Both the position numbers and the translations under genes were made by a program. From Tribonema minus (taxonomy: Eukaryota > Sar > Xanthophyceae > Tribonematales > Tribonemataceae), in contig JAFCMP010000117.1 of NCBI GenBank assembly GCA_017506865.1, positions 177,362 through 241,361 on the forward strand: DNA of 64,000 nt. The letters are read 5' to 3'. The notes beneath the pieces were generated by a model. It was not told the DNA's origin and did no database searches. It saw only the letters and a program-made list of their open reading frames with translations. Positions 34,369 to 62,667 of this stretch are shown here, in pieces; the first letter of the stretch is position 1; each line of letters opens with the position of its first letter.

Positions 34369-37300
34369 ATGGGCGGCTCCTTCAGAGTCCGCGTGCTGCA
34401 GCCTCTGCCCTTGGTTCTACTGGTTTTGACTGTCCTGACTTTTGCAGCAACGGCTTCAGCAGCAGCACAGACAGCAGCAGGAACGCCCACCGCTCGCAAG
34501 GCACAAAAAAGCGGTACGAAAAATGGCAAGAAGCGCCCGCATCCCAGTAAGACTGCTGGGAAATCCCCTGTCAAGGACATCAGGGCTCACAGCATCGAAG
34601 ACAGCGCGGCTGAAGCAAGGAGCAACAAAGACCACGTGTCACTGGCGGGAGTGCAATTGGCAGAGCTGGAGCAGGAGCTTGAGGACATCAACGTCATGAA
34701 CAAGTATGACAGGAAGATGGACAGGCTTCTGCTTGTGATGCCGCTAACGGATTCGTTTGAGCCAGCGGTGGGGCAGTTCGGCCACGGCCATCTGCAGACG
34801 AGCGACAGGGTCAGCTTGCCACAATCTGTGCTGAAAGAGGTAAGGAAGGCCGTGTGTGCTGTCCATGGTTGCCAACACGCCTGTTGCTCGCACACGGAGG
34901 TCACTTCATGTCAATCACCACCAGCCCATGCCTTCTCAGCTGGTGGCTGCGGTGCGGCAATGGCAAGCATGTGCATATAGCAGCTGGCGAGGGACGACGT
35001 GCGATGGGCTTCACCTGCATCAACCATCCATGGTGCGCCTGCTTGCTCGCCGCCATGTGCTGTGTCCCGCTCACACGCACCATGTATGCACCATCCGCGA
35101 CACTGCCCGCAGGTGCAACATCGGAAGCTGGAGTTCCCCTGGCAGTTTGAAATTCAGGTGAGGCGGCAGCTGCTAAGCGGAGGTGCTGTCGCTGCGAGCG
35201 TCAGTGCGGCCTTCGCTGCGTGCCTCGCTGTTACGCGCGTACCTCATCAACAATAGTACTAGTCATACGCGCGCCGGGTGTGCTACATGTGCCTTGCGTG
35301 TCATGGTTGTCTCAAGGTCTCTTGCGCGCCTGACGCCTGAGTGCACGTCACAGCGCACAGCCCAAGCTTCAGATGATGACAGCGTCTACCAAACAGCCTC
35401 TGCTTTGCGCTGCCGGATGCGCCCCCACCCTACTGTTGCTCACACGCATGCGTACGGGCTCGGCTTTGTGCGCTTCTCATGCACGGCACGGTCGTGGCGC
35501 CACCCCCAACGCGCCCCGCGACTCTGACTCGCACTCCGATCACTCAAGACTTGCGTCCTTCCATCGCCGCCTGCTCCAACCCAAACACCAGCCGTTCCTC
35601 GCCCATGCGCCGCCTACTCCGATCCCTAAGCAGCAGTGCATGCACCAAACAATGCTTGCGTGCATGTGTGCACTATGTCCGCGCTTACCCTGACCCCGTG
35701 CAGCGCGTGTGCCGCTGACGCAAACCCATGTGCCGCGCCCGCTCTAACCCTAACCCTATCCAACCCTAACCCTGCGCAGCGCGCATGCACCAAACAATGC
35801 TCGCGTATGCGTACACTGCGTCCGCTGAGACCCTCACCCTAAGAAGTGCCTGCACAGCTGACGCCCACCCACGCCTGCTCCAACCCCTACCTCGCGCAGC
35901 GCGTGCACCGGCGCGGCCCCGGCGACTACCTGCCCGTGGAGCTGTCCATGCCGACGCGCGACGATCTGGCGGGGCGGACCGAGATGCCGCAGCTGAGCAG
36001 GGTCACGTGCTCGCCGCTGGACGCGCGCGCGCCGGAGCAGGTATATATGTACTAGAAATATGATACCTACGTGCCCCACATGCGCTAGGGACGCGGCGCG
36101 TCGGGCACTGTGGTAATGCGGGTGGTGAAGTGATGCCCTCTGCGCGCTAGACGCGGCGTCGCGCATGGTAGGTTCTGATGAGCTATCACTGATGTATACT
36201 CATAATACATGCCCTGTGCACAGTGTTTCGTCATCAGCTGTCAACCCATCTGATATGATCATCTGATCTGATGCCTGCTGCGCGCTAGACGCGACGTCAT
36301 GCATTCTCCTTTTCGATCAGCTGTCGCTGACCTGAAGGATTCAGCGCATCTCAACAGCAACAGTGCTCGACCGCTCAGCTGCCACCCGACCGTGGAGCTG
36401 AAGGTTCAACCAAATCTTTGCGCGCAGTGCGCATGTCACCACGTCCTCAGTGCGGTTCAGCCCTGGGGTAGACACTGAAGAGAGTGGGGACCTTTGCAAT
36501 ACTGCTCAATGGGCACCTTTAGCAGGCGAGCAAGATGTATGCAACTCAACATTTGTAGCTCTAGCCCTAGGCCAATAGCTTGCCAGCGGTTGAAAGTGAT
36601 ACACTGCTCTGTGCTCCTGCTCCCTGGTACCGTGCAGTATATATTCATCCCGGACTGGATGATGAAGAGCCTGCGACTCAAGCCCAGGGACATCGTCCAG
36701 TTGAGATACAAGGTAATGCCATGTCAACCCGACCCTGATCTGACGCTTAAAGTTGCTTAGAGCCTTTTTGGCAGGTTTTGTGTGGATATGGTATATGTAG
36801 TTAGAGTCATCGTATACTGTACAGTTGATGGCTCCATGTACACAAGAATGAGAACATCGTGCGGTATACTGTACAGTTGATGGCTCCATGTACACAAGAA
36901 TGAGAACATCGTGCGGTGAAGGTGCTGCTAAGAGCCTTGCTGGTGCGCTGGGCCTCTCGACGGATGTTCTTTGACCCGTCGAATTGAAACGTCATGCGTA
37001 TCAAGTACTTGATAAAGAGCTCTACATGTTGCAAAGTGTTGTGTGCTTTACCACTTTGCAACTTCAAAAACATCAGTATGCATCCACACCTGTCAAGTAT
37101 TTGCAAATTCTAATGTGTGAAGTTCATTCTGCAGCAGTTTGTGATGCAAATGCATACCACCAGGGAGGCGACGTTCTGCGATCGTGCTGTCATATGCGCA
37201 GTTTTCTTCGTGAAGTGTTCAGAGATGACACAATGTAGTGCACTTGTCAGCCGTGCTCATCAGGTGCACAGCCCGACAGGCGCACACAAGTTTATGCTGT

Positions 37301-40027
37301 GCCCCGCTTCATCCTTCCTGACATCGGGCTGCAGTTCCTGACTGTAGGAAGAATGCATGCAGAGCCTCGCCACCACACTTGTGACGTCACCTCTGGTCTG
37401 ATGCCAGCGGCTGCTGTGTCCAATGGTTAACGTGCACTTGAGCTGCGACCTCCGCATGCTTGACACTGTCAGTTCGTGAAGCCTCATGCTTCTACTCGGA
37501 TGCTCGTACTGTGTATTGGACGGCGTCGCGCGCTTTGTGCGCGAGGCGACGGCCCCTCTTGCTGCAGCGCGCCGTCAGCGGATCCCGCGCAGCGCAGCGC
37601 GATCCGTGGCACATGCGGCCATGAGCGGGACGCGCTTTGTCTATCACTTGAACAATGTGGCCAGTGTGTTGGCCCTCTGAACCTTATTGTAATCCAGGTA
37701 ACAACATTCCAGCCAGCGATGCGTGCGCGCTCACGCATGCTGCGGTACGAGCCTCAGACGCCGGCACCAGCACGCTTGACGATGGCCCCTCTTCGGCCGT
37801 CGGCGTGCTTCCGGAGTTGCGCCTCAGGGCAGCGCGTCCGCGAACAGACAGGCATGTGCGTTCATGCACTCCGACACGCGCATTTATTCGCTCCGCCCGT
37901 GGCGCCCCACCCCCCGCTCCCCCTGTTGCGCGCGCGCAGAACCTGCCGCAGTCGACGGGGTGCGTGCACCTCCAGGCGCACTCGGAGTCGGCCGCGACGT
38001 CGCACGCCGTGCTGGAGGAGGAGCTGCGGCACTACAGGTACGTGGGTAGGTAGGTACAATAGCAGATGATGGCGCGCTGAACGCTGCTGACGGCCGCGAT
38101 GTCGCTGCGGCACTGCAGGTACGGGGGGGGGGGGGAGGTATGTAGGTAGGTAGCGTGTGACGCGGCTGAGCGCTGCTGACGGCCGCGGCATCGCATGCCG
38201 TGCTGGAGGAGGAGCTGCGGCACTACAGGTAGGTGGGGTAGGCAGGTATAGTTGCGTCTGACGGGGTGCTGAGCGCTGCTGACAGTCGTGACGTCGCACG
38301 CCGCGCTGGTGGAGGAGCTGCGGCACTACAGGTACGTGGGGTATGTAGGTAGGTAGCGTCCTGACGCACTCTGAGCACTGCTGCTGACGCGGCGGCGGCG
38401 CGGCGCAGCGGAGTGCGCTCGACGTTGCGGCGTCAGGCAGCTGACACGCGCGCGCATTGGCGGTCCGGCGGCGTGTGTGACATGACACGCTGTTTTTCCG
38501 GTGCGCCCACCATTGCGGGGGGGGAGGGGTACACAGCTCCATGGCATCTGAAGAGCAGTGCATGCAGGACGGTACTGCGCCGTGTCGTGCAGCAGCATTT
38601 CAACTACTAGGTAGGAATGTGGTGCCGGCGGCGGGCGCCCTTACTCTGATCTGCTGCGAACACAGGTGCTGTGTTGGCGAGAGGGCGCTTGATGGATTTA
38701 GAGAGCCCGTCTCGGTGTGATCCGCAGTTGAGCACTGATATAATGAGAGCACTTCAATACACACCCGCAGTAGAAAAGCTGTGGTATAGGACGGGCAGGC
38801 GGAAGTGACCATGTGCGGTCTGTATGCATGTTTGAGACGTGACGCGCTTGCGTCTGACCGTGTGGTGGCGGGGCAGCTCGTCCGTGTAATCCGTGTAATC
38901 ATGTCATGTTCAGTCAATACGATGCTGATGTACGATACGCGCTGTTAACGGTGCTGCTGCCCTCAATCATGCTCATTCGTGTTTCCGGTGGCGCATGTTG
39001 GCGAATGCCATGTCAGCACAGACTGGCCTTCGTTGCCATGGGCCGCCTGCTTTGCGCCGTTCGTTGCCACGGGCCGCCTGCTTTGCGCCGGTCGCCATGA
39101 TGCACCTCAAGCGCGCGTCGAGATCACATGTTTAGAACTCACACACATAAACGACCGCTCATCACCCTGTCGCGCGCTGCCTGTACGCAGCTCGCTGACG
39201 GCCGGGACGACCATCAGCTTTGTGTTCAACCCGCAAGGGGCGGAGCTGGGGGGCGCGAAGGGGGCCAAGGGCAAGGCCAAGAAGGGGGTGGGGGCGCGGC
39301 GCGAGGTGAAGATCAACGTCGTGCAGTGCGTGGATGCCGGGGGGCGAGCAGTGGAGAGCGTGTGCATACAGGTGAGTGAACTCCCCCCCTTTCTTCTTGA
39401 GACGAAACGTGATCGCTGCCGGAGAGACGGATGGAGCGTACGGTGGTCAGGCACTGGCGAGCACTGGGGCATGCCGCAAGCGGCAGCCGCTTCTGCCAAG
39501 CGCACACCAGAAATGCACCGCAGCAATGCGCGCCCAGGGCGTTGTCACAAGAATTCATCTCGGCATCTGTGCACGACAGGCGTTGACGGTACACGACACG
39601 CCTCAGTGCTTGTACGTACGACAACTGTTGTCGTACAGGCACTGAGATGCGTCGTGGCAACTGGTGTCGTGCGGGTACTGAGATTCGTTGCACCAACATC
39701 ACCTCCCTACCTACAGTAGTAGCAGTGTCGTACAGGCAGCGAGGTGCGCTGCATCGACGGAAGGTGCTGCGCTGACAAACACTGAGGTCACTGTCTTGCA
39801 CCGTGCCACTTCACTACCCACTCGTAACTATCACAACACTGTTCGGGTGCTCGCAGGACGCCGACGTCGGGACGGACTGGTTGAAACCTCTGGACAAGCT
39901 CAAGAAGAAAAAGGCGGCTGCGCAGCCGGCGCCGCGCGGCGCGGCGGCAGCGGTCAAGGGGAGGCGCGCAGCGGAACGCAAGGCCGCCGCAGCCGGCGAC
40001 GTGGACGCGAGCGCAGCGCAACACTGA
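34369..40027 (+). CDS. Ufd1-domain protein with N-terminal signal peptide
   Basis: Seven exons: 34369-34839, 35113-35157, 35900-36040, 36638-36712, 37940-38037, 39191-39371, 39857-40027, with consistent phases, giving about 393 residues. The start has a clear signal peptide (LPLVLLVLTVLTFAATASA) and then a basic, Ser/Thr/Lys-rich stretch. The Ufd1 fold follows: DRVSLPQSVLKEV..., YIFIPDWMMKSLRLKPRDIVQ, the segment ending SHAVLEEELRHY joined to SSLTAGT, then a DADVGTDW end resembling the Ufd1 D-x-V-D-F region, and a Lys/Ala-rich tail. Ufd1 partners Npl4 and Cdc48 in extracting ubiquitylated proteins. A signal-peptide-bearing Ufd1 is a hallmark of SELMA, the ERAD-derived import machinery of red-type secondary plastids; that role is inferred. 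The introns carry tandem copies of exon edges. Confidence 0.8.
35690..35930. repeat. Three copies of the exon-3 acceptor edge of the Ufd1-like gene
   Basis: GTGCAG|CGCGTGTGCC (AG at 35702-35703) and GCGCAG|CGCGCATGCACC (AG at 35778-35779) precede the authentic CGCGCAG|CGCGTGCACCGG (AG at 35898-35899). Upstream pyrimidine-rich sequence (ACCCTGACCCC, AACCCTAACCCT, CAACCCCTACCTC) is also repeated. Each copy keeps an AG acceptor. Confidence 0.6.
35744..35773. repeat. Interstitial CCCTAA telomere-like tract
   Basis: TAACCCTAACCCT, an interruption, then AACCCTAACCCT, inside intron 2 of the Ufd1-like gene and upstream of an acceptor copy. It may serve as a pyrimidine tract. Confidence 0.75.
36100..36310. 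repeat. Degenerate repeats in intron 3 of the Ufd1-like gene
   Basis: The unit GATGCC...GCGCGCTAGACGCG(G/A)CGTC followed by ATCA/AGCT...TCGCTGA occurs near 36131 and 36268, with a weaker copy near 36085. Confidence 0.55.
36810..36917. repeat. Perfect two-copy tandem repeat, about 52 bp
   Basis: GTATACTGTACAGTTGATGG through GAGAACATCGTGCG is repeated twice without visible change, in intron 4 of the Ufd1-like gene. Confidence 0.85.
37990..38345. repeat. Four tandem copies of the exon-5 donor edge of the Ufd1-like gene
   Basis: The authentic exon end GAGCTGCGGCACTACAG|GTACGTGGG (donor GT at 38038) is followed by copies with donors at 38119, 38229 and 38332. Each copy also repeats upstream exon sequence (CGTCGCACGCCG) and downstream intron sequence (GTAGGTAGG). 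All four keep AG|GT. Confidence 0.8.
39560..39780. repeat. Foldback repeat in the last intron of the Ufd1-like gene
   Basis: CTCAGTGCTTGTACGTACGACAAC is followed by its near reverse complement TGTTGTCGTACAGGCACTGAG, with further partial copies (GTCGTGCGGGTACTGAG, GTCGTACAGGCAGCGAG) to about 39760. CGTTGCACCAACATC and GCTGCATCGACGGAAGG near the right end resemble arm sequences of the foldback at 62779-62898. Confidence 0.6.
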
Positions 40028-41946
40028 GCATCATCGGGTCGGTGACTCTCCCCCAAAGCACCTTTCATGAATATCACATGAGGAACCGGATTGTCGCATT
40101 CGGTCCCCCTTGTGCCCTGTGTTGATGTAGCAATGGACTCGGAGCAGGTCCAACCCGTCACTGGGCATCTCTTGCGAGACATGTCTGGATCATTGAGTTG
40201 CATTGCTGGCTTCGATTGTAGCAATAGTGCGCCGCATAACCTTCAGGTTTGGGCTGTAGTTGGATCCAAATCGCACCTCTCAAAACACTTATTAAAGTTA
40301 CTATAGTCTGCGTTGTGCAGGGTGCAACTGGGTTGGGGGCTGTACGATTCTGTAAGTGTGGTCAGGATACTGGGATTGGGATCAGGAGGGTCATGCTGAT
40401 CTAGGGCTTGGAATCTCGGGATCCCTCCTGTTAGGACAGCAAAGAGGGCAGGGGTTGCAACATGTGCACCGCGACGCAGATTGAGTGCTGGTGTACGGCA
40501 AGTATGTTACGCTTTCTCTGCAGGTGCCGGGGCTGCCAGGCTGGTGATCAATCCGTAAGGCTCTGCTCGCAACTTCAAGTTGGTGTGACAGTCCCAAAAA
40601 TCAGACATTTATAGCAGAAATCCGAATGCTGTGCTGAGTACATTCATCAACAACTTGAAGGTCTGCATCGGAGCCACCTCAAATTTTTCAGAGGGGGGTG
40701 GACAGTCGATGCAGGTATATATGGCTTCGATGCAGTTCCCAGGCACATGTGAAGGTAGGTTCACACTGATGACACGCAATCGTGACTCATTATTCGCACT
40801 GAAAGCTGAGTAGCCAAAGCCCTGTTGCAGTGAATATTACATGACTTGTAGTGATATTCTCCCCACCTGAAGTTGGAGCACAGCACGGAAAACTCAAGCC
40901 CCACTCACAAGTCATGATGAAGGTTAACCCATGTCATCATTGCCAGGCCCTGCAGTCATGAATCGCGGGTCAGTTTTTCCGAAAAAAACGTGAACTGCGA
41001 TTTCATTTTTGTTGACAGAGCAGCATTTCATGAACCATGATGATCCTGCATTGACTGCCGCAGCCTACATAAAAACCTCATGTAAGCGAATGGCGTGTGT
41101 GTTTACATGTGGCGACAGAGCACCGGTTAGGCGTCTATATACTCTCGCCGACACTGCTCAGCATGTCATATGCCTTCAGGCACCTCCCCAACGGTGCAAC
41201 AAACACTTCAACTTGAAGGTAAAGAGAAGATGCCGAGAGATGCCCCGTGTCTGGCGTTTCAAGGTCAAGGTGTGTGTCGAGTTCAACGAAGCCAACGAAG
41301 CACACACCTAGTGTCCTAGTGAGTGTGTACACATCGACCGTAGTCCACTGCAGGCTGATCATCGGCTATGAGCCTTTCAACATCGCATCTAGATGTTTCT
41401 TTTTTCGTGGCTGGCTGTTCAACACACGCATCATGAAGGTGTGGAAGGTGTGTCGCTTGCTTGCAACACGTGAGAGACCCAAGAAACTATCTTTCTTGCC
41501 GGACTGAAGGCAGCGCAAGCGCCTGCTACTTACATCACGAGCGGCTCCCGCTGCGGCTGCCATCTGTGCATCAAGCACACGAATCGTCGACGACGAGCCG
41601 CCGCCGGCGGCACTGAAAATTCATCGGGATCGTGACATCAGTTCCTCCTGCGACAGCGCCGTCATGATGGCCCCGGGCCTGCGGGAAGACTGAGGAAGCA
41701 AGATTGAGATCAGCACCCAGTTCAGCACCAGATGCCTCCCGCTCTGAATCGAGCTCCGTGAGCCAGGGCGCTGTCTGCCGGCTGCTGAGGTTCAACGTCA
41801 TTTTTGATGCCGCAGCCACAGTGACTGGCACTGCCAGGTGGTGGGACCGTGCCGGAAGCCGAGGAATCGGATTCAGGCAGCCTGATCACTGACAGCCGGA
41901 GCTCAGGTACTATAAATGCGTGTGATCTACTGAAAATCAATGACAT
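40028..41946. other. Intergenic DNA, no supportable gene
   Basis: Near-palindromic CAACTTCAAGTTGG occurs at 40570, and related words lie at 40654, 40870 and 41206. Open frames are short and without motifs. GC content falls progressively toward 42 kb. Confidence 0.4.
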
Positions 41947-44208
41947 GTGACAATGAGTTTGCCTCTGAGTCAGTCACTGTGGTCTACTAGTGTAACAGGA
42001 CCTGTTGTCCCCCGGGGGCCCCATAATATGTTCTGACAAACGGAATCCGATTCCGAAGTGTAGTACTTAGTAATACTCGACAATGTTCTGAATCACTAAA
42101 CTGATTTATTACTAATAGTATTAGTAGCTACTGTAACAGGGACTGTCGCTGTATAATAACGTTCAGTTTTACTGATGCAGGAATCATTATTACTTTCAAA
42201 TTGTCACACGTTAAACTTGTCAAGATGCAAGATTAACCTTTTAAAAGATCAACGGTCATCATAGCAATATATTATGCTGAACATTCGCCATCTGGGCTCT
42301 TTCAAGCCCTAAGTAAGCGACTGTCACAGTGACACCATTTGAATTGCAAAAACGGACCTGAATTAAAAACGGGACTCAGGCTGGTGTGGACTCTGCAAAA
42401 TTTAATGTCATTCAATGGACTAACTTAAAGTCTTCTCTAAATTGTGATGATGTGGGTGTAATAGTCGAAATGCTCAGAAACAACTTGGAAATAATGTAGC
42501 TGAAACTTTCAAGTATTTATTTTCTACGCTCAGGATCTTGAGATATACCATGTTGAACTTGGGCTTGAACATTAACCTCAACTGTGAACCTTCGCTAAGT
42601 ACAGAAGTTCTACTCCATGTTGAAGTTTGAAAAGTGCTCAGTGCTTATTATGGAATTGTTACCAACTTCAACACTGGTCCTTTAATCTAATAAACTCAAC
42701 ATCATGTATGAATTCAGCAGCGAACGCTGGCAGGGTTCAACCAGACTTTGCCATGGCAACTTTGAAAGTGGTTTGATGCTGGGTCCCGTTTTTCCAAATT
42801 GAATTGGGGTCCCGTTTTTGCAATAATAATTATTCAATCCTGACTCAACTGTTGATAATAAAAAAGCACAGGTCCTGGGCTACTAGTAGTACAGTAACTC
42901 CCGAAGTCAATGTTGACAACCCTACTCAGTAAAAGCTACTGGCCGCCACCTGGTGCCTCAGAGTCTGTGGCACACGTACGGGATACTGATGCCGTATTAG
43001 CAACAGGTAATTACTGTTACTGTAACAGCCTGAGTAGAACCAGCCTGAGGCCTCACTGACTCACTGGCAGGCTCCCGGAGCTCGCCTGCCTTGAGGCTCT
43101 GTATTAATTTATTATTCAATCACATAGTGACTCACTGGCCCACTGGCAGGGTAACTTAATTGAATACGACGTATATGAAGTTTCAGAACCAGTTACTTTG
43201 AGAAGAAAGAAAAAAAATCAAGTCCAATATCAGCTTCAATATGAGTCCTGATTCATGCTGCCGCATGCACTGCATGTCCAGTCACAGTCACTGCCAGTGT
43301 GGTCTGCAGCAGCTGTTACAGCAACAATTGTTGTAGCAACGGCACTGCATATGGCATAAAATCTTACTTGCAAAAGCAGTTGTTTGTTGAATTATTATAA
43401 ATAAATAGATGATATCATTTATATAGCACTAGTGCTTAGTCTAAATCCAAATTTAACACTGTCCTACTTACTTAGTCTAGTGTAATAGTAGCAGCCTGAG
43501 CCTGAGGACCTCAGACTCTGAGGCCATGTTTGAATATTTAATCTCAAAGTCAGTATGCCAATTTGAACTTTTATTTGCGAGAAACAGGACATCGAGTCAA
43601 CCTACTAGTAGGCAGCCTCAGCTGCCTTGCCACCGTGGCTGAGTGGACCAGGTCCAAGACAGTCTGACTCAGTGGTTTTAAAACCTGCCAGTGCCACCTG
43701 GTCCAGTGGTGTGAAACCTTCCACTGCACTCGACATCGTGAGTAATACTATCATAATTGACATGCCTTGAGAAATTTCAAATTAATAAAACTGTAAATTT
43801 GTAGCAAGAAAAATAAGTTGTTGCTTGAAAAAAATCAAGTTTGTTTTCTAATTTTAAATTAGATTTTTTTGTTTCAAAAATAGTTTGTCTTTGCAACTTC
43901 CACAGTGTTATTTATTTATTTATACAAATAACATTATCATAAAATACAGAGTGCGACTGACTACAGCATTAATTTACATTGTAATTCATCAACTATATTT
44001 CAAATTCAATTTGTTGCTTATTATTTTCAAGAATCATGATGACCCATGTAGTATATAAATGATACGTTGTAATACTATACAGTATACTTCGAAGTACATA
44101 CATTAGTAGTCATTCCATACATCATGAAATTGCAACAGCCGGCTTGGGGCCATGACCTGGCAGCGCCAGACTGCTCTGTCAGTCTCATGAGTGACTGTCA
44201 CATTCAAT
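41947..44208. other. AT-rich tract lacking open reading frames
   Basis: For about 2.26 kb there is no open frame of 60 codons on either strand, whereas the rest of the window is full of them. By eye the tract is markedly AT-richer than its surroundings, with runs such as TTATTTATTTATTTATAC near 43907. Recurrent words are TGTAACAG (41992, 42133, 43018), CTCACTGGC (43070-43145) and AGCCTGAG (43027, 43495). A short inverted repeat CGGAATCCGATTCCG lies at 42040. No gene, LTR or TIR structure could be recognised. Candidates include an AT-rich regulatory or centromere-like region, or a decayed element. Confidence 0.65.
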
Positions 44209-50774: not shown

Positions 50775-53700
50775 TCACTGTGCCACGGGCGCGCCGCCGC
50801 CGTCGAACAGGCTGCCGCACGCCTCGAACCAGTTGCGGCGCATGCCGTCAGCGCGCGAGGGGGCGCCGCCGGCGTCGCGGCGCGCGGCGGCGCGCGCGCG
50901 CGGCGGCATGTTCTCGTACAGGCGCTTCGTCGCCGAGTGCAGGATGGGCTGCGGCAGCGGCGCGTTGATCTGGATGAGCATACGCTGGCCGGGCAGCAGC
51001 GCGCCGGCGGGGGCGGCGCCGCCGCCGCCGTCTGCGCCGCCGCCATCGCCGAGGACCAGGACGTCCATGAGCGTGGAGGTGACGGCCTCTGGGAGGGGGG
51101 GGGGGGGAGGATGAGGGGGGGGGAGGGGGGTCAGCGGGGGATGCATGCGACAGGGGGGGGGGGCGGGGGGGGGCGAGGGGGGGTGGCGCGGGATGCATGC
51201 GGTAGTGAGGTGCTGCTCGAATGGTGTATGCGTCTATTGTGCGGCAGGGCATGCGTGCGCATGTGTGTTGTGTGCGGGGGGGGGAGGGGGGGGGGGGGAG
51301 GCTAAGCTTCCGATGCTTCAAACTTTTGGGTCAATGTGCGTGTTTGGGGGGAGGGGGGGGAGGGGGGCGGCAGGGCCTTGACACTACAGTCAGGCGCCGA
51401 TGCAGTGGGCCAGCGGGCACGGCGTCTCCCCGCAATACTATATGCGCTCGTTGGATTCGGAAACTTGCACTTTGGGAGTACTTCAGCAGCAGCGCGCGTC
51501 GGAGTCTGTGAGCGCATCCTAGCTCAGACAAGCACAGCGCACATCTGCGTCAAGTTGCAGCTCCTCCCGCCCGCCCCCTCCCCGCGCGCCGCCACCTGGA
51601 CGGTGCGTGATGTATCACACACTGCTCCAGCCGCCGCTGCAGTCTTGTTAGCCGCCTTGTGTGCCTGTTGCTACACACCGATAAGCACCACACGAATGCG
51701 TCGCGCATTGCTGCCGCCGCTAAGACTGCCACTGCATGCTCCGTGGTATATACAGTTCCACACAAACCGCCCTCCCCTCTGACTAAACTTCAACGGGCTG
51801 CTATCCGCACCCTCCACTGCCCCGGCTGCAGCTGCTGCGGCTCTGCGCGCTGCGCGTTTCACACCACCGCAGCGACGCAAACAGCGCAAGCAACGCATTG
51901 CACGGCTGCGCGCTTGCGCGCTGTAGCGCTGTTGCGGACGCCGCAGCGGCGCATTCAGCGCAGAGGTGCGGCGCGGCGCAGTGCGGCCGCGTTAAACTTG
52001 AACTGCTGTGGACACGGGAGCCTAGTGCAATTTGAAGTTGTGAGTCTTGAAGTTGTGGGCGCGCACCTCGCTCCCCCAGCGCCACCTCCACGGCCTCGGC
52101 GTGCATCTTGCGCCGCTTGAGGCGCAGGCGCTGCGCCTCGGCCTGCTTGTCGTGCTTGCGCGTCTCCTCCTGCTGCGCGTGCGCGGCGATGGTCTGCTCC
52201 ACGACGCGCTGCGTGTCCATGTCGCGCGCCTGGTTCTGGATGATCTCCTCCCTGCGCGTACGCGTAATTGCAGGTTATGGGTACAAGTGTATGTGTACGA
52301 AGTGACTTGCTGTCTGTTATCACCGAGCCCCAGCCTGCACTTCAGAGTTGAAGACCTGACAGTACATACTTCAGAGTACAATGGTCTGCTCCACGACGCG
52401 CTGCGTGTCCATGTCGCGCGCCTGGTTCTGGATGATCTCCTCCCTGCGCGGTACGCGTAATTGTGAGCGGCGGTGGATACGTATATGTGTTCACAACGAT
52501 GTGGCAAACTCAATGTGTCATTGAGCCTCAGCCGCCAATGCAGAGGTGGTCGCTGCTTGAAGTTTTGATAAACATACATGCCACTGCAGTGTCCGCTTCG
52601 CTACTAGTAAGTGCTGCGAGTCCAGGTGGAGCGCCTAAAATTCCAACGCTCTCGTCCCTGCCCCAAAGCGCAAATTGTGGTATGCGTCCATGTACCTCCA
52701 TGTCTATCTATGAATGCGTATATGACACGCACTCGTCACATGACAGAGCTTCGGCATGCGCAGCGGAAGCCGGTTAGGGTTAGGGTTAGGGTTACGCCCT
52801 TCACCGGTCACATTGTGCGCTGCAAACCCCACGCGTCGTGCCGAAGCTGCTACATCCAGTTCCCCCTTGCGGCAGCGCTCATTGCCTGTGCGCGTCCTTG
52901 TATGCCCGTATTTTCGCAAGGCACGCCTCGACCCCTACGCGTAGGGTTGAAGTTACTACTACCCTCCACACAGCAGCGCCTGTACGCGTCCCCGTCCTTG
53001 GCCGAGGCACGCCTAAACACAACACACCCTGTATTGTTGAAGTTACTACTTTGAGCTTGCCCTCCTGGCAGCAGCGCTCATCACCTGTGCGCGTCCTCGT
53101 ACACGCGGATCTTGGCAGGCACGCCTCAACGTCGACGCCGTCAGTGAGGTCGTAGACGACTCATTATATAATATGAGACAACTATGCGCTTATTGTTTGT
53201 TCATGTTACTACTTCAACTTCAGCAGCGCTCATCACCTGTGCGCGTCCTCGTACGCGCGGATCTTGGCCAGGCACGCCTCAACGTCGACGCCGTTGGTGA
53301 GGTCATATATGAATTACCTATTGCGCTTATTTTTTGTTGTGTTGAAGCTACTACTTCAACTGCATCAGCGCTCGTCACCTGTGCGCGTCCTCGTACGCGC
53401 GGATCTTGGCCAGGCATGCCTCGACGTCCACGCCGTTAGTGAGGTCATAGATGAGGTCCTCCACCTCCGCCAGGTAGTTGTTGTACTCCAGCAGCGTCTC
53501 AAAGTCCTCCTCCGTCTTGTTGAAGCTGCGACCAATGCACCAGGGTGAACGGCGCGACGCATCGTCAAATTTCAACGTTGTTTCCAGGGAAGCGGCGCGA
53601 CGCATCGTCAAACTTCAACAGTTGACGCCAGGGAAGCGGCGCGACACGTCAAACTTCAAATGTATTGTGCACGGAGTGGCGCAGTCGTGGCACCGCGGCG

Positions 53701-55869
53701 TGCTGTGCGGGGAGTCTCGCAGCTGCGAGGAGTGGCGGCGCTTTCTCTGTCTGCTGGCGCGGCAATTGCGCGCGCTTCTCGACAGATGCAGTGTGATGAA
53801 GTCATACCTCAGGGGAAGCGTGACGACGCGTAGAGTGCAACTGAACCTCAAAGTATGCGCGGCGCATGGAGTACGTCTTTGCCAGTACCTGTTTGCCAGT
53901 GGCGACGCGAGCGGCGTCGGCAGTGAGAGTTCGCGTGCAGGCCGAAGTAGGTATCTGTAAGTGGTGCCAATGATTTCGCAACCTCGCTCCGCAGCAGTGC
54001 ATGCATGATGCCGCCGTATTTCCGTGATGCATTACGGCGTCAGCTTGAGCTGCCCATCATGATCAGCAAGGATAGGCGCAGCGACGTCATCGCAGCAGCG
54101 CTTGTCAAGTCCATTCTCGGTAGCGCTCTCACTTTTTTGAGGTAAAAGCTACATCATATCAGTTGTCACAATGCACCAGGCGTCTTCCAAGGAAGGCGTC
54201 GTTCCAAGTGAGCTGCAGCTCATACCCTGCTCCACAAGTATTGAGCGCTCTGCTGCTGAGCGCTGCACTGCCTCCCTTAGGTTGGCAGTCGCGCAGCCAC
54301 GATGGCCGTGCGTAGTGCTTGTCTGTTGCATCTGCCCCCGAAAAACTGTACGCACAGCATTTTGCGAAGTCACTCCAGGTGACAGACTGCCCACGATCTT
54401 GTGTTCTTCTGCTGAGCATCATCCTTGCCTTCCGCGTCACTCCAGCGTGGCGTCAATGCTACTTACCCTCTTGGCCGCCTGGCAGTGCCATCGCGCTGAT
54501 ATTCATCTGAGTGGCTTCAGCAGATGCATGTGCACAAATGTCAATCTCACAGCTTGCACGGAGTGTACTTCGACGTACACAGCCATGACACCCAAAACGC
54601 AATATAAAAAGTATTCCCCACCGTTGCCTGCTGCAATATTGATCGACACGTGGACTGTGAACTACTGCACACGGTGCGTGAGCTGTTCTGCACAGCGAGC
54701 TCAGTCTTAATGCTTCATGCCTCTACATGTGTCGCTGCATCTCCGTATGCGCATGTCACTCACACTCTGATATCTCCTCCTGCGGTGCGTCAACTCCTTC
54801 TGCCACAGCCATGTATGTATGCTCATGTCACTCACATTTTGAGTATCCTCCTGCGGTGCGTTGCGCATTCTGCTCACATTTGAGCATCCTCCTGCGGTGC
54901 GTCAACGTATTCCGCACGGCGAGCCCTTGATACTTTGAATGATACTTCGAAGTATGCTTCTGCATGCGCATGTCACTCACATTTTGAGTATCCTCCTGCG
55001 GTGTGTAAGCTCCTTCTGCACAGCGAGTTCGTCCAGTGTCTTCTGCGTCAGCCCGGTTCGCTTGACGTCCTTCTTGCACTTGGGGCACTGGAACACCTTC
55101 TTGCGCGAGAACTCGCGGTCGCAGCACGAGCCGCAGCTGCGGTTACGGCAGTTATGCACGCCAGTGCTCAGCTCTGTGATGATGCGCATTGTGAGGAACG
55201 CGAGAACTTGCGGTCGCAGCAAGAGCCGCAGCTGCAGTTACGGCAGTTACGCACACACAGCGCTCAGCTCTGTGTTCCGTGTCAGGAGGAACTCCGCACA
55301 ACGTGCGACCACTTGTGCTCAGAGACTGCACTGGTCACATCCTGAGTCTAATGGTGACATGCGCATCAGCAGTGGTATAACACGGCTCTAAGCCTTGGCT
55401 TGCTGTGGGCGTATGCTATCGTGTACGTACATTTGGAGACCCTTGCAGGGTGAGCAAAGTACACAAGAACATGAGCCATTCAACAAAGTGTGCCACCATC
55501 TAATACACCCCGTGTTGCCCATTTGTATGTACCCTGGCGTGTGCATGATAGGCATGGCCCGGGCATGAAAGTTAATGAAATGAGCGACGATCATGCACCC
55601 GAGCGTGCTCTCTTCTAAATGAAATGGGGAAAACTGAGATGCGCAGTACAGATGCCATATCCCAGTGGATGACATGTACGATCCCTAAATCGTCTGGCTT
55701 CAATGCCATCAGAAAGCTGGGGTATTGTAAGAGAGAGAATTTTTTGGACAAAAACTCACAATTTGTGGCCGCACAGGTTGTTGACGAGCAGCTTGTCCTG
55801 CGTGATCTTGTCCTCGCTCTTGCAGATGGAGCAGACATCTTCGTCCATGAGTCCGGCGTCGTACCCCAT
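50775..55869 (-). CDS. MNAT1: MAT1, CDK-activating kinase assembly factor (TFIIH subunit)
   Basis: Five minus-strand exons: 55869-55760, 55136-54981, 53525-53379, 52251-52067, 51088-50775. All junctions are GT-AG with matching phases, giving 303 residues against 309 in human MAT1. The N-terminal RING finger spans exons 1-2: DVCSICKSED...LCGHK then FCGSCCDREFSRKKVFQCPKC. The MAT1-specific motif follows (KELTHRRRILK, FNKTEEDFETLLEYNNYLAEVEDLIYDLTNGVD), then a long charged coiled coil (EEIIQNQARDMDTQRVVEQ...KHDKQAEAQRLRLKRRK) and a C-terminal segment ending WFEACGSLFDGG like the family's final helix. MAT1 stabilises CDK7-cyclin H and anchors it to TFIIH for transcription and cell-cycle control. 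The start may instead be the in-frame ATG at 55953 or 55848. Most of its introns contain copies of adjacent exon edges. Confidence 0.92.
51089..51375. repeat. G-rich (C-rich on the coding strand) low-complexity tract in the last MAT1 intron
   Basis: Repeated runs of 6 to 13 G broken by A or T. On the coding strand this is a very long C-rich pyrimidine stretch leading to the last acceptor (AG at 51090-51089). It has quadruplex potential on the plus strand. Confidence 0.75.
52178..52460. repeat. Two copies of the MAT1 exon-4 acceptor edge
   Basis: ATGGTCTGCTCCACGACGCG through CTCCTCCCTGCGCG-TACGCGTAATT occurs at 52190-52268 (authentic exon, acceptor at 52253-52252) and at 52381-52460 (intron copy). 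About 70 bp of exon and 15 bp of intron are duplicated almost without change, except for one extra G beside the acceptor. Confidence 0.85.
52774..52794. repeat. Interstitial TTAGGG telomere-like tract
   Basis: Three and a half perfect TTAGGG units inside MAT1 intron 3. Confidence 0.85.
52880..53460. repeat. Tandem copies of the MAT1 exon-3 donor edge
   Basis: The authentic exon end (53379-53460 on the plus map, TCACCTGTGCGCGTCCTCGT onward) is repeated at about 53233-53305 and 53091-53160, with weaker, older copies near 52975 and 52885. Each clear copy retains the donor (minus CACAG|GTGA) and GTTGAAGTTACTACTT-like intron sequence beside it. The period is about 142 bp. Confidence 0.85.
53537..53660. 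repeat. Three-copy tandem repeat upstream of MAT1 exon 3
   Basis: CCAGGGAAGCGGCGCGACGC then ATCGTCAAACTTCAAC, a unit of about 45 bp, occurs three times just upstream of the exon-3 acceptor. Confidence 0.8.
54741..55030. repeat. Copies of the MAT1 exon-2 donor edge
   Basis: The authentic end (CACTCACATTTTGAGTATCC then TCCTGCGGTG, from 54973) recurs near 54826 almost exactly, and in diverged form near 54756 and 54867. The 54826 copy keeps the donor sequence AAAAT|GTGAGT on the minus strand. Confidence 0.8.
55108..55262. repeat. Two copies of the MAT1 exon-2 acceptor edge
   Basis: CGCGAGAACTCGCGGTCGCA through GCTCAGCTCTGTG at 55106-55177 is repeated at about 55198-55272 with few changes. The acceptor region (minus CCGTAACCGCAG|CTGCGG) is preserved as CCGTAACTGCAG|CTGCGG in the intron copy. 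Confidence 0.8.
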
Positions 55870-56499: not shown

Positions 56500-58064
56500 A
56501 TGGCAAAGACGCAGCAGAAGTCCAGGAAGAAGCGGGTGGCGGCGCACATCAGGGCTGCTCAGGAGAAGAGGAAGTACAAGGCCGCAGAGGCAGGCGACGA
56601 CGTGCACGTGCCTAAGCTTGGCGCTAAGCGGCCCAGGACAGGTGGGCACCCGGGATCGCAGGGCACCCTGCACGACTGCTTTGTTTACAATAGCTTTTGA
56701 CTGGTGCTCTGATTTGCACCGGGGATCACAAGGCACCCTGCATGATGGCACTGGTCACAATGGCTTCAGAATGATACATTTCTTGCACATGCACGACTCC
56801 GAGCAGCCACAGGCGGGAGCGATGTACACATCCGGCCGCACAGCCGGCTGATGGTCGCAATCTGCAATACTGACTGGATGCCCAGGAATCTTCCTGGCTC
56901 TGTGTGCGGGCCGTCTTGGGCTTGCAAACGCTTGCAGGGCCTCCGCGCCTACCAATATGTGTAGTCTGTCTACCAATATGTGTAGTTTGTATGCTGTGAT
57001 TACGCGGCTGCTGCAACATCGACCACTACACCCCTGTCATTCGAGCCCTCTACCATGCGTGCGATGCCTCAACTACCCTGCTTGAAACACCGTTTCTTAC
57101 TGCGCTGTGCTACCGGCACTCCTCAGAAGCGGTAAAGGCGGCCGCCTCAGCAGACGATGGCGCGAGCGAGGCTAAGCACACAGCGCAGGCCAGGGCGCTG
57201 CGCGAGATGAGCGAAGCCAAACAGTACCTTAGGGCATGGAAGCAGAAGGAGGACGGTCAAAATAGTGGCTGGAAGTTCAACAAAAAGGTGAAGAATATTG
57301 TGCGCGCTTCTTCAGTCGCTGCCTCGTGCATGGGTCATGTACTTAAGTAATACAATCCCCTGGCAGCGCATGGCTGCATGTCAAATGTAATGGTGGCACA
57401 GGGCCACATGCATGCTGTAGGAGCCCCGCCCGCTGCATCAGCAGGTGACGATTTGATGTCTAGCGCGCACCCTTGCTACTTTGTGTTGATCATCAAGAGC
57501 CACCGTGTTCTCCAGTGGTACGACTTGTTGTGCAAGTCTGCTGCGCGGCCTCTGCAGCTGATGGCAATGGTGACGGCGTCCGCACTCAGGGACAGCCAGC
57601 CAGCCAGCCCACCTGGAGGTGCAGTTTTGCTGCTCATCACATTCTTCAGAAGTACGTGCGCGTGTAACTGCCAACGACATTTCTCTTGCCATCGCTGACG
57701 CGACGCTCTCGCGCCCACGCACGCGCGTGCTCAGGTGCAGGTCTGGCTGATACGGCACATGTACGACAGCGCGCGTGTCGACAAGAAGGACTTCAAGCTG
57801 CTCGCCGCGTACCTCGACGGCATGCAGGGCGCGGCGCGGCAGAGGCTCGCTGCGGAAGCGCGCGACGCCATTGAGAAGTGCGCGCCATTGCTGGATGATG
57901 ATGCGGGGGGGCAGGGCGAACATGGGGGTGGCAAGGGGGGGTTTCAGTTTGGGTTTGAAGAAGAGCAAGCGGAGGGGGGGGGGGCAGGGCCGGATGTGGT
58001 AGATAAGAAGACGGCGCGACTGATGCATGCGCGCGCGCTGCTGGTGGCGGAGGCGCTTGCGTAG
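56500..58064 (+). CDS. WKF-domain protein (C7orf50-like)
   Basis: Three exons, 56500-56641, 57151-57287 and 57735-58064, with phases 1, 0 and end, give 202 residues. The N terminus is very basic (AKTQQKSRKKRVAAH). The WKF domain is formed across the exon 2-3 junction: GWKFNKK joined to VQVWLIRHMYDSARVDKK, then FKLLAAYLDGMQGAARQRL. This matches the signature W-K-F-N-K-x-x-Q-x-W-L-x-R-H-M-Y-D of the C7orf50/DUF2373 family, which is nucleolar and linked to ribosome biogenesis in animals and yeast. A Gly-rich acidic linker and an Ala/Leu helix end the protein. Placing the acceptor at 57734 rather than six bases later keeps the family spacing. Confidence 0.85.
56642..56775. repeat. Two-copy tandem repeat after the WKF exon 1
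   Basis: GCACCCGGGATCGCAGGGCA then CCCTGCACGA...ACAATAGCTTTT is repeated at about 56712 as GCACCGGGGATCACAAGGCA..., a 65-70 bp unit starting at the donor site. Confidence 0.75.
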
Positions 58065-58486
58065 ACATCTTGGTGGGGGGCCGCGTAATCATGTTCAATG
58101 TCACCATCTCATGATGTAGTGTATGACGATGGGTGTGCTGAGTATGGCTTTTCCTCTTCTTTGTGGAGTTCATTTTGTGGCATGGGCTCCTTCTGTTTGT
58201 TGAGAGTGCGCGTGTTGGAGCATGCTTGAACTGACGCCAATGATGGTGGCGTCTGCTGCTGGTTCTCATGTAGAATGTAGACAAGCGCATGCTCAGGTCC
58301 TTCGTCCCAAAAGAAAGCTGCCACTGCGCGCCGCCTTCAATTGTTGTGAGGGCACATGGCAAAAACGTGCTATACTCTCTGTGTGCAACAGTCAGGTGCA
58401 CCGTCACCGTCTTCGCCTTCTTCAACTTCAATGCATCTGTTGAAGTGCGTGAAGTGTGCCAGAATATGAGGAAAGAGCGCTCAGCA

Positions 58487-61400
58487 ATGGTCTGTCGTTG
58501 TCCCTTCTTTGCGACTCTGGCTCTGGCTTGTCTGCTGGCCCCTGCGACATGCTTCAACAGCGCTTGTAGCAGCTTCACTTCACATTATCAAGCCCAGCCA
58601 CTGCAGCTCTCGCCAGCACACCAACGAGCGCAGTATGGCGGCAGGCACAAGCTTCAGCGCAGCAACAGCCCTAGCATGGCCCTAAAATTCAAGAGAAGAC
58701 GCACTCAAAACGTTACTGGCAATCTCTTCGTTGACGAGTCCTGCATAGACTGCGACGCCTGTCGGTGGATGGCCCCAGCCACGTACAAGCGAGTGGGGCT
58801 AGGCGCAGCAGTGCATAAACAGCCGGGAACAGAGAGCGAGGTGCAAGGTGCGCTCAGGGCCGTGCTAGCCTGCCCCACGGGCTCCATACGCTCGCTGAAG
58901 GGGGATCCCAGGGTCAAGGCTGCCTTTACGCAGTTCCCGGTGGCGGTGGCGCCGGATCAGCTGAAGGGGATCTTCCACTTGGGGTTTCACACGGTGGCGT
59001 CAGGCGGCTCTACTCCGTATCTCATTGTGCCGCCGAGCAGGCAGAACATCATGGTGGATGTGCCGCGGTGAGTGTTCGAGGGTGTGGTACTCGGAGACAT
59101 ACTCGTGACTGGCACACTGGTAGGATCGCATCGTGGCGGCGCTGCGACCGCGGCTCGCTCGCAAGTGAGTGCGCAAGCGTGCTGTCGCATGCCAGGTGAT
59201 CGTTGCACGACGCCCATGCATTAGCCGCAGCACGCAGGCAGGTGGCAACTGAATACCTGCACATCTGCTGCATGCACGACGCCGCGGTTACACAGACGCC
59301 GCTGCCGCATGCACGCCTCTGTGTCATCGCCGTCACGGCAGCGCCGCGGACACAGCGCGCTGCAGGCCCTGCTTGCAACACACGCGGCTGGCCGCGCATT
59401 CACCAATCGCCCTGATAAACGACACACCACACATCTCAGCCTGCCACCACCACTGCTCGTGCATCCGCCGTCTGTCTCACTTGCCACCGCCACCATCGCG
59501 CGCTGTGCCCGTTGCCCCCTGCGCGCGCGCTGCCGCACAGCTACTCCAAGCGGCTCGCAGACCTCGTGGACGCGGCGGGCGGCGTGCGCTACCTGTTCCT
59601 CACGCACGGCGACAACGCGCACGGGCACGCGGCGTGGAAGGCGCGCTTCCCCGCGGCGGAGCGCGTCATGCACGCCTTCGACACGCTGCCGCACACGCGC
59701 AGGGTGGAGCGCCGCATCGACGGCGACGGGCCGTGGCAGGTGCGTGCCGCGCGCGTGTAGAGTAGGTGTGTACTACTGTGGGGGATAGGGTTTGGAGCGG
59801 GGCTGGGGCAAGGGCTAGGGGCATTGCAAGGCGGTGCCGGGCTGGCCGCTGGCGGCGCTGGCTACGGCGCTGGCGCTGCCGCGGCCTCGAGGCGGAGACG
59901 CGGAGCGCACTCGCGCTTGGCGTTCAAGGCGTGGGGAAGTCAGATGCTGGCAGGGCATGGCTTGTGCCTTTGCGTTCAGGCGATCAGGCAGCCGACGCCA
60001 CGTTCCTCATCAGATGTTCTTGCGGCGCTGAAGTCGTCCCCGGCGGACGCGCGCGACGACGTGCGCCAGGCTGGCGGTCTCCTATCTCTACCTTCACTGC
60101 TCAGGGCGCTCACGGACCCGGTGCGGCTGTGTCTGCCGCAGCTGCGCGCGGTGCATTCACTACGCGACCACCACACATGCATACGCACCCGATGCCCAGA
60201 TCACAGCGCAGCGCAGTTGCGGCTCTCGGGAGCATGCCTCTACAGCGCCGTGTCTCACGCGAACGCGCCTGTAGCACCAACGGAACACGAGTCGCCGCCG
60301 GGCACAGCGGACCGCGCAGGCAGCGGAATGCGCCCCTGATCGCGGCGCAGCGGCTGCTCTGCGGTCACGTTTGCATGAAGCGCCTGCATCGAAGACCTAG
60401 TCGCGCCGTGAACAGCGGACCGCGCAAACGCCAGCTGCCGCGCACCCTACCCTCACAAGCCTCCTCAGTGGTCGCTGCGCCCGCCACACGCATTGAAGAC
60501 CCAGGCACCGTGCACAGCAGACCTCGCAAACGCGAGCCGCCAAGCGCCCTCATCAGGCCCCTGCGCGCCCCTCCCTGCACGCGCCCCCAAGGGCATTTCT
60601 TTGCTATGACTCGACACTTCAAAGCACTTGGCAGAAAGAACAGTATGACCTCACGGGTCGTATTTTTGACATTGAATATGACGCTGCCACCGCAGCTGGA
60701 CCCCGAGGGCACCGCCAAGATCGTCTACACGCCCGGTCACACGTACGGGTCGTGCGCGCTGCTGTACGCGCCCGCGCGCGCGCTCTTCACAGGCGACGCC
60801 GTGGGCTGGTCGTGGCGCCGCGACGCGCTCGACGGCTGGAGCCGCGAGAACAGGGCCGGGCTGCCGCGCCAGGCGGCGTCCATGCGGGCGCTCGCGGAGG
60901 TAGGCCTGTGGCGCGCGCTTTCAGATGGGCGTGCTGCTGATGTGTATGTAGATACCTCGAAGTACGCAGTTGGCAGGGTATGGTGCGCAGAGTGGGAGGG
61001 GGGCTGCCGCGCCAGGCGGCGCCGATGAGGGCGCCGGCGGAGGTGCATGGCGCCTTTTCATATCGCTTTGCTGTTGGAGCGCACGCTTGTTTGCGATCAC
61101 CTAATGTGCAGAACGGCTTGCAGAACGTTCAGAGGCGGGCTGCCGCGCCAGGCGGCGTTCATGAGGGCGCTGGCGGAGGTGCGTCGTGGCGCGCCCTTTC
61201 TATTTCCTGGTGTGCATGTATTGGTGTCGGCAGGGTACTGTGCGCAGAGTGGAGGTGGGTTGGCGCGCAGTCTTGGATCGCTGCGCTGGTGAGAAGTACG
61301 TATGTACCTCGAAGTGCGCAGTTGGCAGAGTATAGTGCACAGGACGGGGCGGTGCTGCCGCGCCAGGCGGCGTCCATGAGGGCGCTGGCAGAGCTGCGTA

Positions 61401-62667
61401 GCACGCAGTCTCGGATTGCTTCGGTGGTGAGAAGTACGTTTATACATCGAAGCATGCAGTTGGCAGAGTACAGTGCACAGAATAGGACGGGGGCTGCCGC
61501 GCCAGGCGGCGTCGATGCGGGCGCTGGCGGAGGTGGGGTCAGCGCGCGGTGCCGGATGTCATCAGATCGGCGTTGTTGATGCGCACAATCGGCAGGGTGT
61601 AGTGGACAGAACGGAAGAGCGGCGGCCGCGCCAGGCGGCGCCTATGCGGGCGCTGGCGGAGGTCCGTGGCGCGCCCTTTCTATTTCTTGATGTGTTGTAT
61701 GTATGGCATGTTCTTCGAAGTATGCGATCGGCAGGGTATAGTGCGCAGAACAGGGCGGGGAGGCCGCGCCAAGCGGCGTCGATGCGGGCGCTGACGGAGG
61801 TGGGTTGGCGCGCGCCGTCTCAGATCGCTTCGCTGGTGATGCGTATGCATGAATGCGGCCGGCAGCGTATAAAGTGCGCAGAGCGGGGCGGGGCTGGCGC
61901 GCGGCCATGCGTGCGCTGACGGAGGAGGGTTGTTGGCGTGCGGTGCCGGATGTCAGGTCGCGGCGCGCTGTTGATGTGCGCGCGTGTTCGCGATCGGCAG
62001 GGTACAGTGCACAGAATGGGAGGCGGCGGCCGCGCCAGGCGGCGTCCGTGAGGGGCGCTGACGGAGGTGCGTGGTGGCAACGGCGCGCTGTTGGTGTACG
62101 CGTGCGTTTGTGGAGGGTGCAGGACGGGGCGGGGCTCCCACGGCAGGCGCCGTTTGCAAGGGCGCTGGCAGAAGTGGGTGGCATTGCATGCTGTTCATGT
62201 GTGTGTAAGCATACACAGCTCGGTGCTCTGTGTACCTACGTGTGGCGTGCGGCGGCGGGCGCGCATGCGCCAACGCGTTATCGCCTACAGCATGAATGGT
62301 GAGCTCATTAGGGCTGAGACGGATCTCAATAGCTTGGCGCCCACTCTCCTTGCAGTATGAGGGTCTTGGCGCGTTGTCGCCTTTGTCCTCGCTGGATGTC
62401 ACAGAGACACCAGGCACACAGTGGCGAACAATGCAGATTTTCAAGTGGCAGTCAAAGCAGTTCTTCACATCCCTACTTGAAGAGTTCTCACATTGTGACC
62501 CAACTTATGCTATCTGTGTACTGTGCGTGCGAATGCAGGAGGACTTCGAGTGGATGCTGCCGGGGCGCGGCAGACAGTTGAAGTTTGCCAACGCAGACGA
62601 GCGGCGCGGGCAGCTGCTGGAGGCGGCAGACGCCTTTGAGGCAGCCGGGCAATCATTCACATTGTGA
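58487..62667 (+). CDS. Plastid-type ferredoxin/metallo-beta-lactamase fusion protein
   Basis: Four exons, 58487-59067, 59541-59739, 60696-60899 and 62539-62667, with matching phases, give 370 residues. The N terminus is a signal peptide (FFATLALACLLAPATC) followed by F and a Ser/Gln-rich stretch, the form of a bipartite presequence for a secondary plastid. A single [4Fe-4S] ferredoxin domain follows (ESCIDCDACRWMAPA ... ACPTGSI). Then comes a metallo-beta-lactamase fold: VDVPRYSKRLADLV, FLTHGDNAHGHAAWK (metal motif), VYTPGHTYGSCALLY, ALFTGDAVG, and a final FEWMLPGRGRQ in which R replaces the usual H of PGHG. This ferredoxin-MBL architecture is known from plant and algal chloroplast proteins of uncertain hydrolase function. 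An ATG at 58466 in the same frame would add seven residues. The third intron is filled with exon-edge copies. Confidence 0.88.
60855..62180 (+). repeat. Ten-copy array of the MBL exon-3 donor edge
   Basis: The authentic exon end GGGCTGCCGCGCCAGGCGGC, GTCCATGCGGGCGCTCGCGGAG|GT (GT at 60900) is followed by nine degenerate copies of the same 40-45 bp plus flanking intron (GATCGGCAGGGTA-TAGTGCGCAGA). Copies end near 61043, 61180, 61393, 61533, 61662, 61800, 61927, 62067 and 62174. Spacing is roughly 110-210 bp. At least seven keep GT at the donor position; the one near 61393 has lost it (GAGCTGCG). Confidence 0.9.

Follow-up and report, generated by a model that had tools for sequence, protein, structure and literature searches.

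Minisatellites and other tandem repeats under unequal exchange are direct tandem units, tens to hundreds of base pairs long, that undergo turnover. The arrays of Tribonema minus described here are direct tandem units of like size, also with turnover, and differ in that some start inside an exon, so that one unit is under coding constraint. A tandem duplication that spans an intron-exon border has been described in a potato RdRp gene (PMC4974935). According to the available part of that report, the duplicated unit holds an exon edge, splice signals and neighbouring intron, as in Tribonema, but in potato a new intron arose whereas in Tribonema up to nine copies add length to introns already present. 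Hence, the statement in a preliminary description of this DNA that no named phenomenon matches was too strong. The Rogers model derives new introns from tandem duplication of proto-splice sites in exons, with cases in Drosophila (PMC2891723). As set out in the accessible text, a short tandem duplication there also adds splice sites without altering the protein, but it copies exon sequence and the new intron forms between the copies, whereas the Tribonema unit straddles an existing junction. No new intron between duplicated splice motifs was found in Tribonema, as the deposited gene models place all copies within a single intron. Introners likewise are repeated sequences with splice sites inside genes; in the part of the source at hand (PMC9860276) they form dispersed families, whereas each Tribonema unit occurs at its own locus only. 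In open-access papers we found no description of exon-edge copying in Tribonema.

The sequence is a 64,000-nt stretch of the T. minus genome (the window), and Table 1 gives its features in + strand positions of the window. It carries a UFD1-like gene, a MAT1 gene and a ferredoxin-metallo-beta-lactamase (MBL) gene. The spliced UFD1-like model is the deposited protein P0061 (100% identity over 393/393 aa). The MAT1 model agrees with deposited protein P0055 over the shared residues and matches the MAT1 chains of solved structures. The MBL model starts upstream of the deposited start and is identical to P0001 (307 aa) from the first methionine of the latter.

Table 1 Genes, copied exon edges and related repeats in the window (+ strand positions).
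Feature	Span	Strand	Exons, copies and evidence
UFD1-like gene, 7 exons	34369..40028	+	exons 34369-34839, 35113-35157, 35900-36040, 36638-36712, 37940-38037, 39191-39371, 39857-40028
Tandem repeat upstream of UFD1 exon 3 acceptor (35900)	35630..35899	+	weak case; pair 35630-35728 / 35776-35871, 75% identity
Perfect 52-bp tandem duplication wholly within a UFD1 intron	36812..36917	+	
UFD1 exon 5 donor edge (exon end 38037) and copies	37989..38351	+	copies about 38076-38119 (partial), 38165-38248, 38268-38351; copied ends near 38118 (partial), 38228, 38331; direct repeats, BLAST pairs, array alignment
MAT1 gene	50779..55869	-	exons 55869-55760, 55136-54981, 53525-53379, 52251-52067, 51088-50779
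MAT1 exon 2 acceptor edge (55136) and one upstream intronic copy	55101..55254	-	copy 55199-55254, copied edge near 55231; 56-nt repeat, 93%
MAT1 exon 2 donor edge (54981) and copies	54745..55027	-	copies near 54877, 54835, 54763
MAT1 exon 3 donor edge (53379) and copies	52862..53454	-	copies near 53237, 53085, 52886; additional weak copy near 52979
MAT1 exon 4 acceptor edge (52251) and upstream intronic copy	52189..52450	-	copy 52381-52450; clear copied edge near 52443, weak one near 52653
Ferredoxin-MBL gene	58487..62666	+	exons 58487-59067, 59541-59739, 60696-60899, 62539-62666
MBL exon 3 donor edge (60899), then nine intronic copies	60857..62183	+	copied exon ends 61042, 61178, 61393, 61532, 61661, 61799, 61924, 62066, 62173; spacings 107-215, mostly 125-143

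At least seven copied exon edges had been reported in these genes. At six of them we found tandem duplication spanning the splice junction, with one to nine direct, adjacent intronic copies that contain exon edge, splice site and intron. The seventh, the UFD1 exon 3 acceptor, holds only in part: the repeat has an acceptor-like motif and copies no more than about 12 nt of exon, as judged by eye. Divergence among copies is graded, and this supports the earlier view that the process is recurrent. In clear cases the duplicated units range from tens to about 330 bp. Similarity did not fall consistently with distance from the exon across arrays (by eye). The same anatomy is seen in a DEAD-box helicase gene on another contig (L030), and exon-edge copying is not peculiar to the three named genes. 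Nor is duplication confined to exon edges: young tandem pairs lie wholly inside introns (52 bp, perfect; 74 bp at 97%; 77 bp at 100%), and the 52-bp UFD1 pair is an example of the same process as the junction-spanning copies. At each copied edge the deposited proteins agree with the splice site proximal to the exon and none of them contains the copies.

Duplication was surveyed in 314 kb of the 158-Mb genome, a non-random choice of three contigs that includes the window's own. About 9% of intron-interior points in this sample fall in a local duplication, and local shuffles gave no pairs at a score of 40 or more and, at score 44, placed 0/831 and 0/1536 anchors in a duplication. The BLAST pair list on which the survey rests misses some short periods; the perfect pair at 36812, for example, is absent from it. 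Local pairs were almost all direct (173 direct vs 2 inverted), and template-switch repair, which should give inverted copies too, is not indicated. Assembly error would be another source of repeats. A few pairs are indeed identical (the 52-bp pair at 36812 and MAT1 exon 4), and the T. minus assembly was left out of a gene-cluster analysis for quality, according to the available part of the report (PMC12459048). However, most copies are diverged with indels, unlike assembly error, and the same anatomy recurs on other contigs, and we give an artefact almost no weight.

The units might also be introners or other mobile elements carrying splice sites, as repeated units with splice-like ends occur in several introns and two palindrome-like words recur in introns. 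However, an assembly-wide search, which skips simple repeats and very common words, found the MBL and UFD1 arrays at no other place and, for the MAT1 stretch, no more than a matching word of 30 nt. Each unit copies the edge of its own neighbouring exon, and all are direct and adjacent. We rejected introners, as no unit was found dispersed at many loci, and consider mobile elements of any such kind extremely unlikely.

The preliminary description held that chance duplication would not straddle junctions so often and proposed a genome-wide test of junction overlap. In the 314 kb, a point test of overlap gave equal rates within error: 27/283 junctions lay in a local duplication versus 680/7406 intron-interior points (ratio 1.04, CI 0.63-1.68), the junctions outside the three genes being predictions of a self-trained gene finder that works without RNA and takes some intronic copies as exons. 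A stricter score gave a ratio of 1.31 (CI 0.78-2.25). By anchor type the counts were 13/141 for donors, 14/136 for acceptors and 139/1536 for interior points. Within the three genes, where junctions were curated, the counts were 5/22 junctions and 455/1875 interior points; the 22 are those testable, since masking of simple repeats took out 4/26, including two at UFD1 (the exon 3 acceptor and the exon 5 donor).

Counting by clusters of duplications left a small excess. In the whole sample 24/54 clusters straddle a junction versus 18.0 expected (P 0.037), and with stricter exons 14/36 versus 8.5 (P 0.025). Without the window the counts were 20/46 versus 15.8 (P 0.10) and, with stricter exons, 11/28 versus 6.8 (P 0.048). 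The excess is thus 1.3- to 1.6-fold, with P 0.025-0.14 depending on the set, before any correction for the slower divergence of pairs anchored in an exon. In the three genes 7/12 clusters straddle versus 2.5 expected (P 0.003), a figure from genes picked because they straddle and from a hand-compiled list in which intron-internal repeats may be missing. These cluster counts are what favours a duplication mechanism aimed at junctions, tied for example to transcription, R-loops or splicing intermediates, that would preferentially copy exon edges. Against it, point rates at junctions and in intron interiors are the same within error, also inside the three genes, and many duplications (17/54 clusters) lie wholly inside introns. 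Moreover, this slower divergence could produce an excess of roughly that size, a point made by argument rather than from a fitted model. Targeting of junctions is not supported by points and is left with a small excess by clusters, and we regard an aimed mechanism as very unlikely.

The reading that we prefer, with a probability of roughly 0.7, is pervasive tandem duplication filtered by selection, in which copies survive because splicing removes them. Short tandem duplications would arise frequently in T. minus. Those in coding sequence would mostly be purged by selection and those within introns would be neutral. Junction-straddling duplications would be neutral too, provided that splicing uses the copy of the site next to the exon, since the surplus exon edge then leaves with the intron. 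The copy in the intron would be a dead, decaying exon edge, and further rounds would build arrays. As the real exon is one member of each straddling pair and is constrained, such pairs should stay recognisable longer than intron-internal pairs. In favour of this reading are the point rates at junctions and in intron interiors, the direct and locus-specific copies, the young pairs inside introns and the deposited proteins; the cluster excess, the third-position bias of all private changes and the conservation of exon parts count against it.

Alternatively, the copies may be functional and kept by selection, as alternative or cassette exon ends or as decoy splice sites. Their exon parts are conserved, between copies too, the gene finder calls several of them exons, and the GT or AG is kept in 20/23 listed copies. 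The last figure is close to what we estimate the divergence of the copies would leave, and selection for decoy splice sites, one of the explanations first offered, is not indicated by it. In helicase copies c1 and c2 the private changes are at third positions only (4/4). However, private changes in 12 younger copies of four arrays numbered 5/6/7 at codon positions 1/2/3. The total over all copies was 28/20/39, with a bias to third positions (P 0.043); this set takes in the oldest copies and a poorly aligned array. In the MBL array the GT is kept in 7/9 exon 3 donor copies; old copies have lost it (2/9) or have indels in the exon part. Given that the deposited proteins lack the copies as well, we think function unlikely.

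The divergence of exon and intron parts bears on the same choice. Over 33 junction hits exon identity exceeded intron identity (0.78 vs 0.72, Wilcoxon P 0.017). Between the real exon edge and its copies the exon/intron divergence ratio was 0.60-0.61 in 4/7 validated arrays, near the expectation for a neutral copy of a constrained parent, and was 0.30, 0.23 and 0 in the other three. When copies were compared with one another, exon parts were less diverged than intron parts in 5/5 validated arrays, and in these arrays gaps per site were 0.012 in exon parts versus 0.173 in intron parts. Over 23 predicted arrays the excess likeness of exon parts was small. Pooled exon/intron totals were set aside because two repeat-rich genes on one contig (C529) dominate them. 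In a control of 25 intron-only pairs the two halves of one duplication often differed in divergence (low/high half ratio 0.67), and so single arrays prove little. The exon parts of the copies are nonetheless unusually conserved, and this is a residual puzzle for the neutral filter.

Exchange offers one answer. In MAT1 exon 4 the repeat is identical over 70 nt (66/66 in the BLAST pair), and beside this exon part the homologous intron part differs at 25/85 sites. A single clock for the unit is rejected (P 4e-6), and the contrast suggests, from sequence comparison, gene conversion between the exon and its copy. In some arrays such exchange between exon and copy, by gene conversion or re-duplication, probably made the exon part alike again.

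Tandem duplication had also been put forward as a route of intron growth, and this is possible. Introns with a duplication have a median length of 717 (58 introns) versus 572.5 for those without (110). However, the duplicated fraction showed no rise with intron length over four length bins (0.084, 0.065, 0.107 and 0.083), and growth by duplication is therefore not shown. A bolder proposal, tentative and on balance rather doubtful, is that recurrent tandem duplication is a leading source of intron length in Tribonema and that exon edges and the copies of them in introns make up small families, homogenised by gene conversion, from which alternative exons could be recruited.

The results set apart two readings, aimed copying of splice junctions and ordinary duplication on which splicing acts as a filter. 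The argument that a constrained parent keeps its copy recognisable for longer holds for every survey of exon remnants within introns. With about 9% of sampled intron-interior points in a local duplication, T. minus provides a good genome in which to measure intron growth and to test for conversion of exon copies. If the bolder proposal were true, an exon and its own intron would evolve in concert, and spare exon edges would stay close to living sequence.

The UFD1-like (UFD1), MAT1 (minus strand) and ferredoxin-metallo-beta-lactamase (MBL) genes were spliced by hand and the models compared with deposited proteins. The deposited ferredoxin-MBL protein of T. minus, a xanthophyte, was 100% identical to the window gene. 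The UFD1 model agreed with its deposited protein P0061 over all 393 shared residues, the MBL model with P0001 from that protein's own first methionine onward, and the MAT1 model with P0055 from the start methionine of that protein up to and including exon 5. The intronic copies are absent from these three proteins, which are deposited gene models; the annotation thus uses the exon-proximal splice site at every copied edge.

Direct repeats confirmed intronic copies at six exon edges of the three genes, from one clear copy (the MAT1 exon 2 and exon 4 acceptors) to nine (the MBL exon 3 donor). The preliminary description had counted at least seven edges; at the seventh, the acceptor of UFD1 exon 3, there is a tandem repeat to which the exon contributes at most about 12 nt. 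The same anatomy was found in a DEAD-box helicase gene spotted among 110 six-frame matches to Helicase_C, where three clear tandem copies and a decayed fourth come after the exon end, inside the next intron. GT or AG was kept in 20 of the 23 listed copies (20 copies in the window, 3 at the helicase locus). No comparable copy series appeared among 131 kinase or 36 DEAD matches, tables that reveal only copies of profile-matching length. Five contigs of the assembly (C144, C223, C278, C90 and C179) carry, in long open frames, kinase and helicase matches that score equally or almost so; they are possibly duplicated contigs or integrated foreign DNA.

Local pairs in the sample were 173 direct and 2 inverted, pairs inside one array being non-independent, and three intron-internal pairs are fresh (Table). 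The data fit tandem duplication through slippage or microhomology, a mechanism that we infer. A duplication crossing a junction could persist because the protein would be unaltered if the exon-proximal site were used, whereas one within an exon mostly could not. Dispersed mobile units were excluded at the sensitivity of the search: the rest of the assembly has no match to the MBL and UFD1 arrays and shares only a 30-nt word with the MAT1 stretch.

Table. Locations of repeats and other sequence features
Location	Feature
Window 36812	Fresh intron-internal pair, 52 bp twice, perfect
C22	Fresh intron-internal pair, 74 bp, 97% identity
C529	Fresh intron-internal pair, 77 bp, 100%, 6 nt common to both ends
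C157:538901-540500	DEAD-box helicase array (L030)
Window 52774-52791, 3197-3208	TTAGGG runs
C22 stretch 66830-68064, 74970, 76287, 81083, 91133	TTAGGG runs
C529 and C117 upstream stretches	TTAGGG runs
Window 14783-15310	About four 120-bp tandem units within a predicted coding exon, length keeping frame; probably a protein repeat
Window 63106-63174, 63534-63593	Short-unit repeats AAAACACGATGA and TGTTTTTCATCG, partly reverse complements, facing, about 400 bp between
Window 42001-44000	GC 39% over 2 kb vs about 60% in the surrounding region

Telomere-like TTAGGG runs of two or more units occur 17 times in 314 kb, every one in predicted introns (shuffle, 0). Seven of these runs are no more than 100 nt from a local duplication, but three of the seven share one array; 9-18% of each segment is that close to one. 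The runs may be a trace of DNA break repair. The palindrome TACTTCGAAGTA occurs six times, in MAT1 and MBL introns and elsewhere in the 314 kb, versus 0 in the shuffle (29 versus 4 with two mismatches allowed).

How often junctions are hit bears on whether selection filters such duplications or the duplications are aimed at junctions. The sample was 314 kb of the T. minus assembly, window included, with junctions predicted by a self-trained gene finder written for the purpose; local shuffles gave no duplications at the scores used. BLAST pairs spanned 15/176 donors and 17/176 acceptors, with intron-interior points at 7.3%. By local alignment, duplications lay at 13/141 donors and 14/136 acceptors versus 139/1536 interior anchors; exon-interior anchors scored equally often (63/639), part of these being repeat-rich coding exons, for example on C529. 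The claim that straddling exceeds chance found no support in the same-intron comparison (27/283 junctions versus 680/7406 interior points, ratio 1.04, CI 0.63-1.68). The ratio was 1.31 (CI 0.78-2.25) at a stricter score and 1.12-1.50, with wide intervals, for stricter exon sets, and in the three genes alone 5/22 junctions and 455/1875 interior points lay in a duplication.

Counts of whole clusters retained a small excess, and are less favourable to selection acting on untargeted duplications than the point counts. In the sample 24/54 clusters straddled a junction versus 18.0 expected (P 0.037), with 14/36 versus 8.5 (P 0.025) for stricter exons and 21/45 versus 15.5 (P 0.042) for a stricter score. 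The corresponding values without the window were 20/46 versus 15.8 (P 0.10), 11/28 versus 6.8 (P 0.048) and 17/39 versus 13.6 (P 0.14). In the three genes, which were chosen for straddling, 7/12 hand-listed clusters straddled where random placement at viable positions would give 2.5 (P 0.003), or 6/11 without the weak cluster (P 0.009). A 1.3- to 1.6-fold excess can arise without targeting, because a pair with one real exon diverges more slowly and is detectable longer; this correction is an argument with no fitted model behind it.

If the copies were neutral, the exon/intron divergence ratio between real exon and copy should reflect constraint on the real exon. This ratio was 0.60, 0.61, 0.61, 0.60, 0.30, 0.23 and 0 in the seven validated arrays, and the value of about 0.6 in four of the seven speaks for neutrality. 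So do the loss of GT in 2/9 MBL copies, two MBL copies whose exon part carries indels, and the private changes of twelve younger copies (5/6/7 by codon position), a tally that omits each array's oldest copy as well as the MAT1 exon 2 array, which aligned badly. However, all private copy changes pooled gave 28/20/39 (P 0.043), exon parts diverged less than intron parts between copies in 5/5 validated arrays, and 33 junction hits had higher identity in exon (0.78) than in intron (0.72; P 0.017). Gaps per site in those five arrays were 0.012 in exon parts versus 0.173 in intron parts; the 23 predicted arrays showed a small exon/intron difference (0.20 versus 0.24). At MAT1 exon 4 the exon part matches its copy at 66/66 sites, and 25/85 aligned sites differ in the intron part of the unit, an alignment reached by 0/500 shuffles. 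Under one clock for the unit, this contrast has P 4e-6. From the sequence, the simplest account of this case would be either gene conversion or another round of partial duplication.

Published reports describe duplication across an intron-exon boundary in potato (PMC4974935) and intron gain in Drosophila through tandem duplication of a coding stretch that contains a proto-splice site (PMC2891723). The T. minus copies differ from the cases as described there in that they sit in existing introns, with no new intron shown. With the conservation of the exon parts unexplained, the T. minus pattern is real, recurrent and of a known kind.
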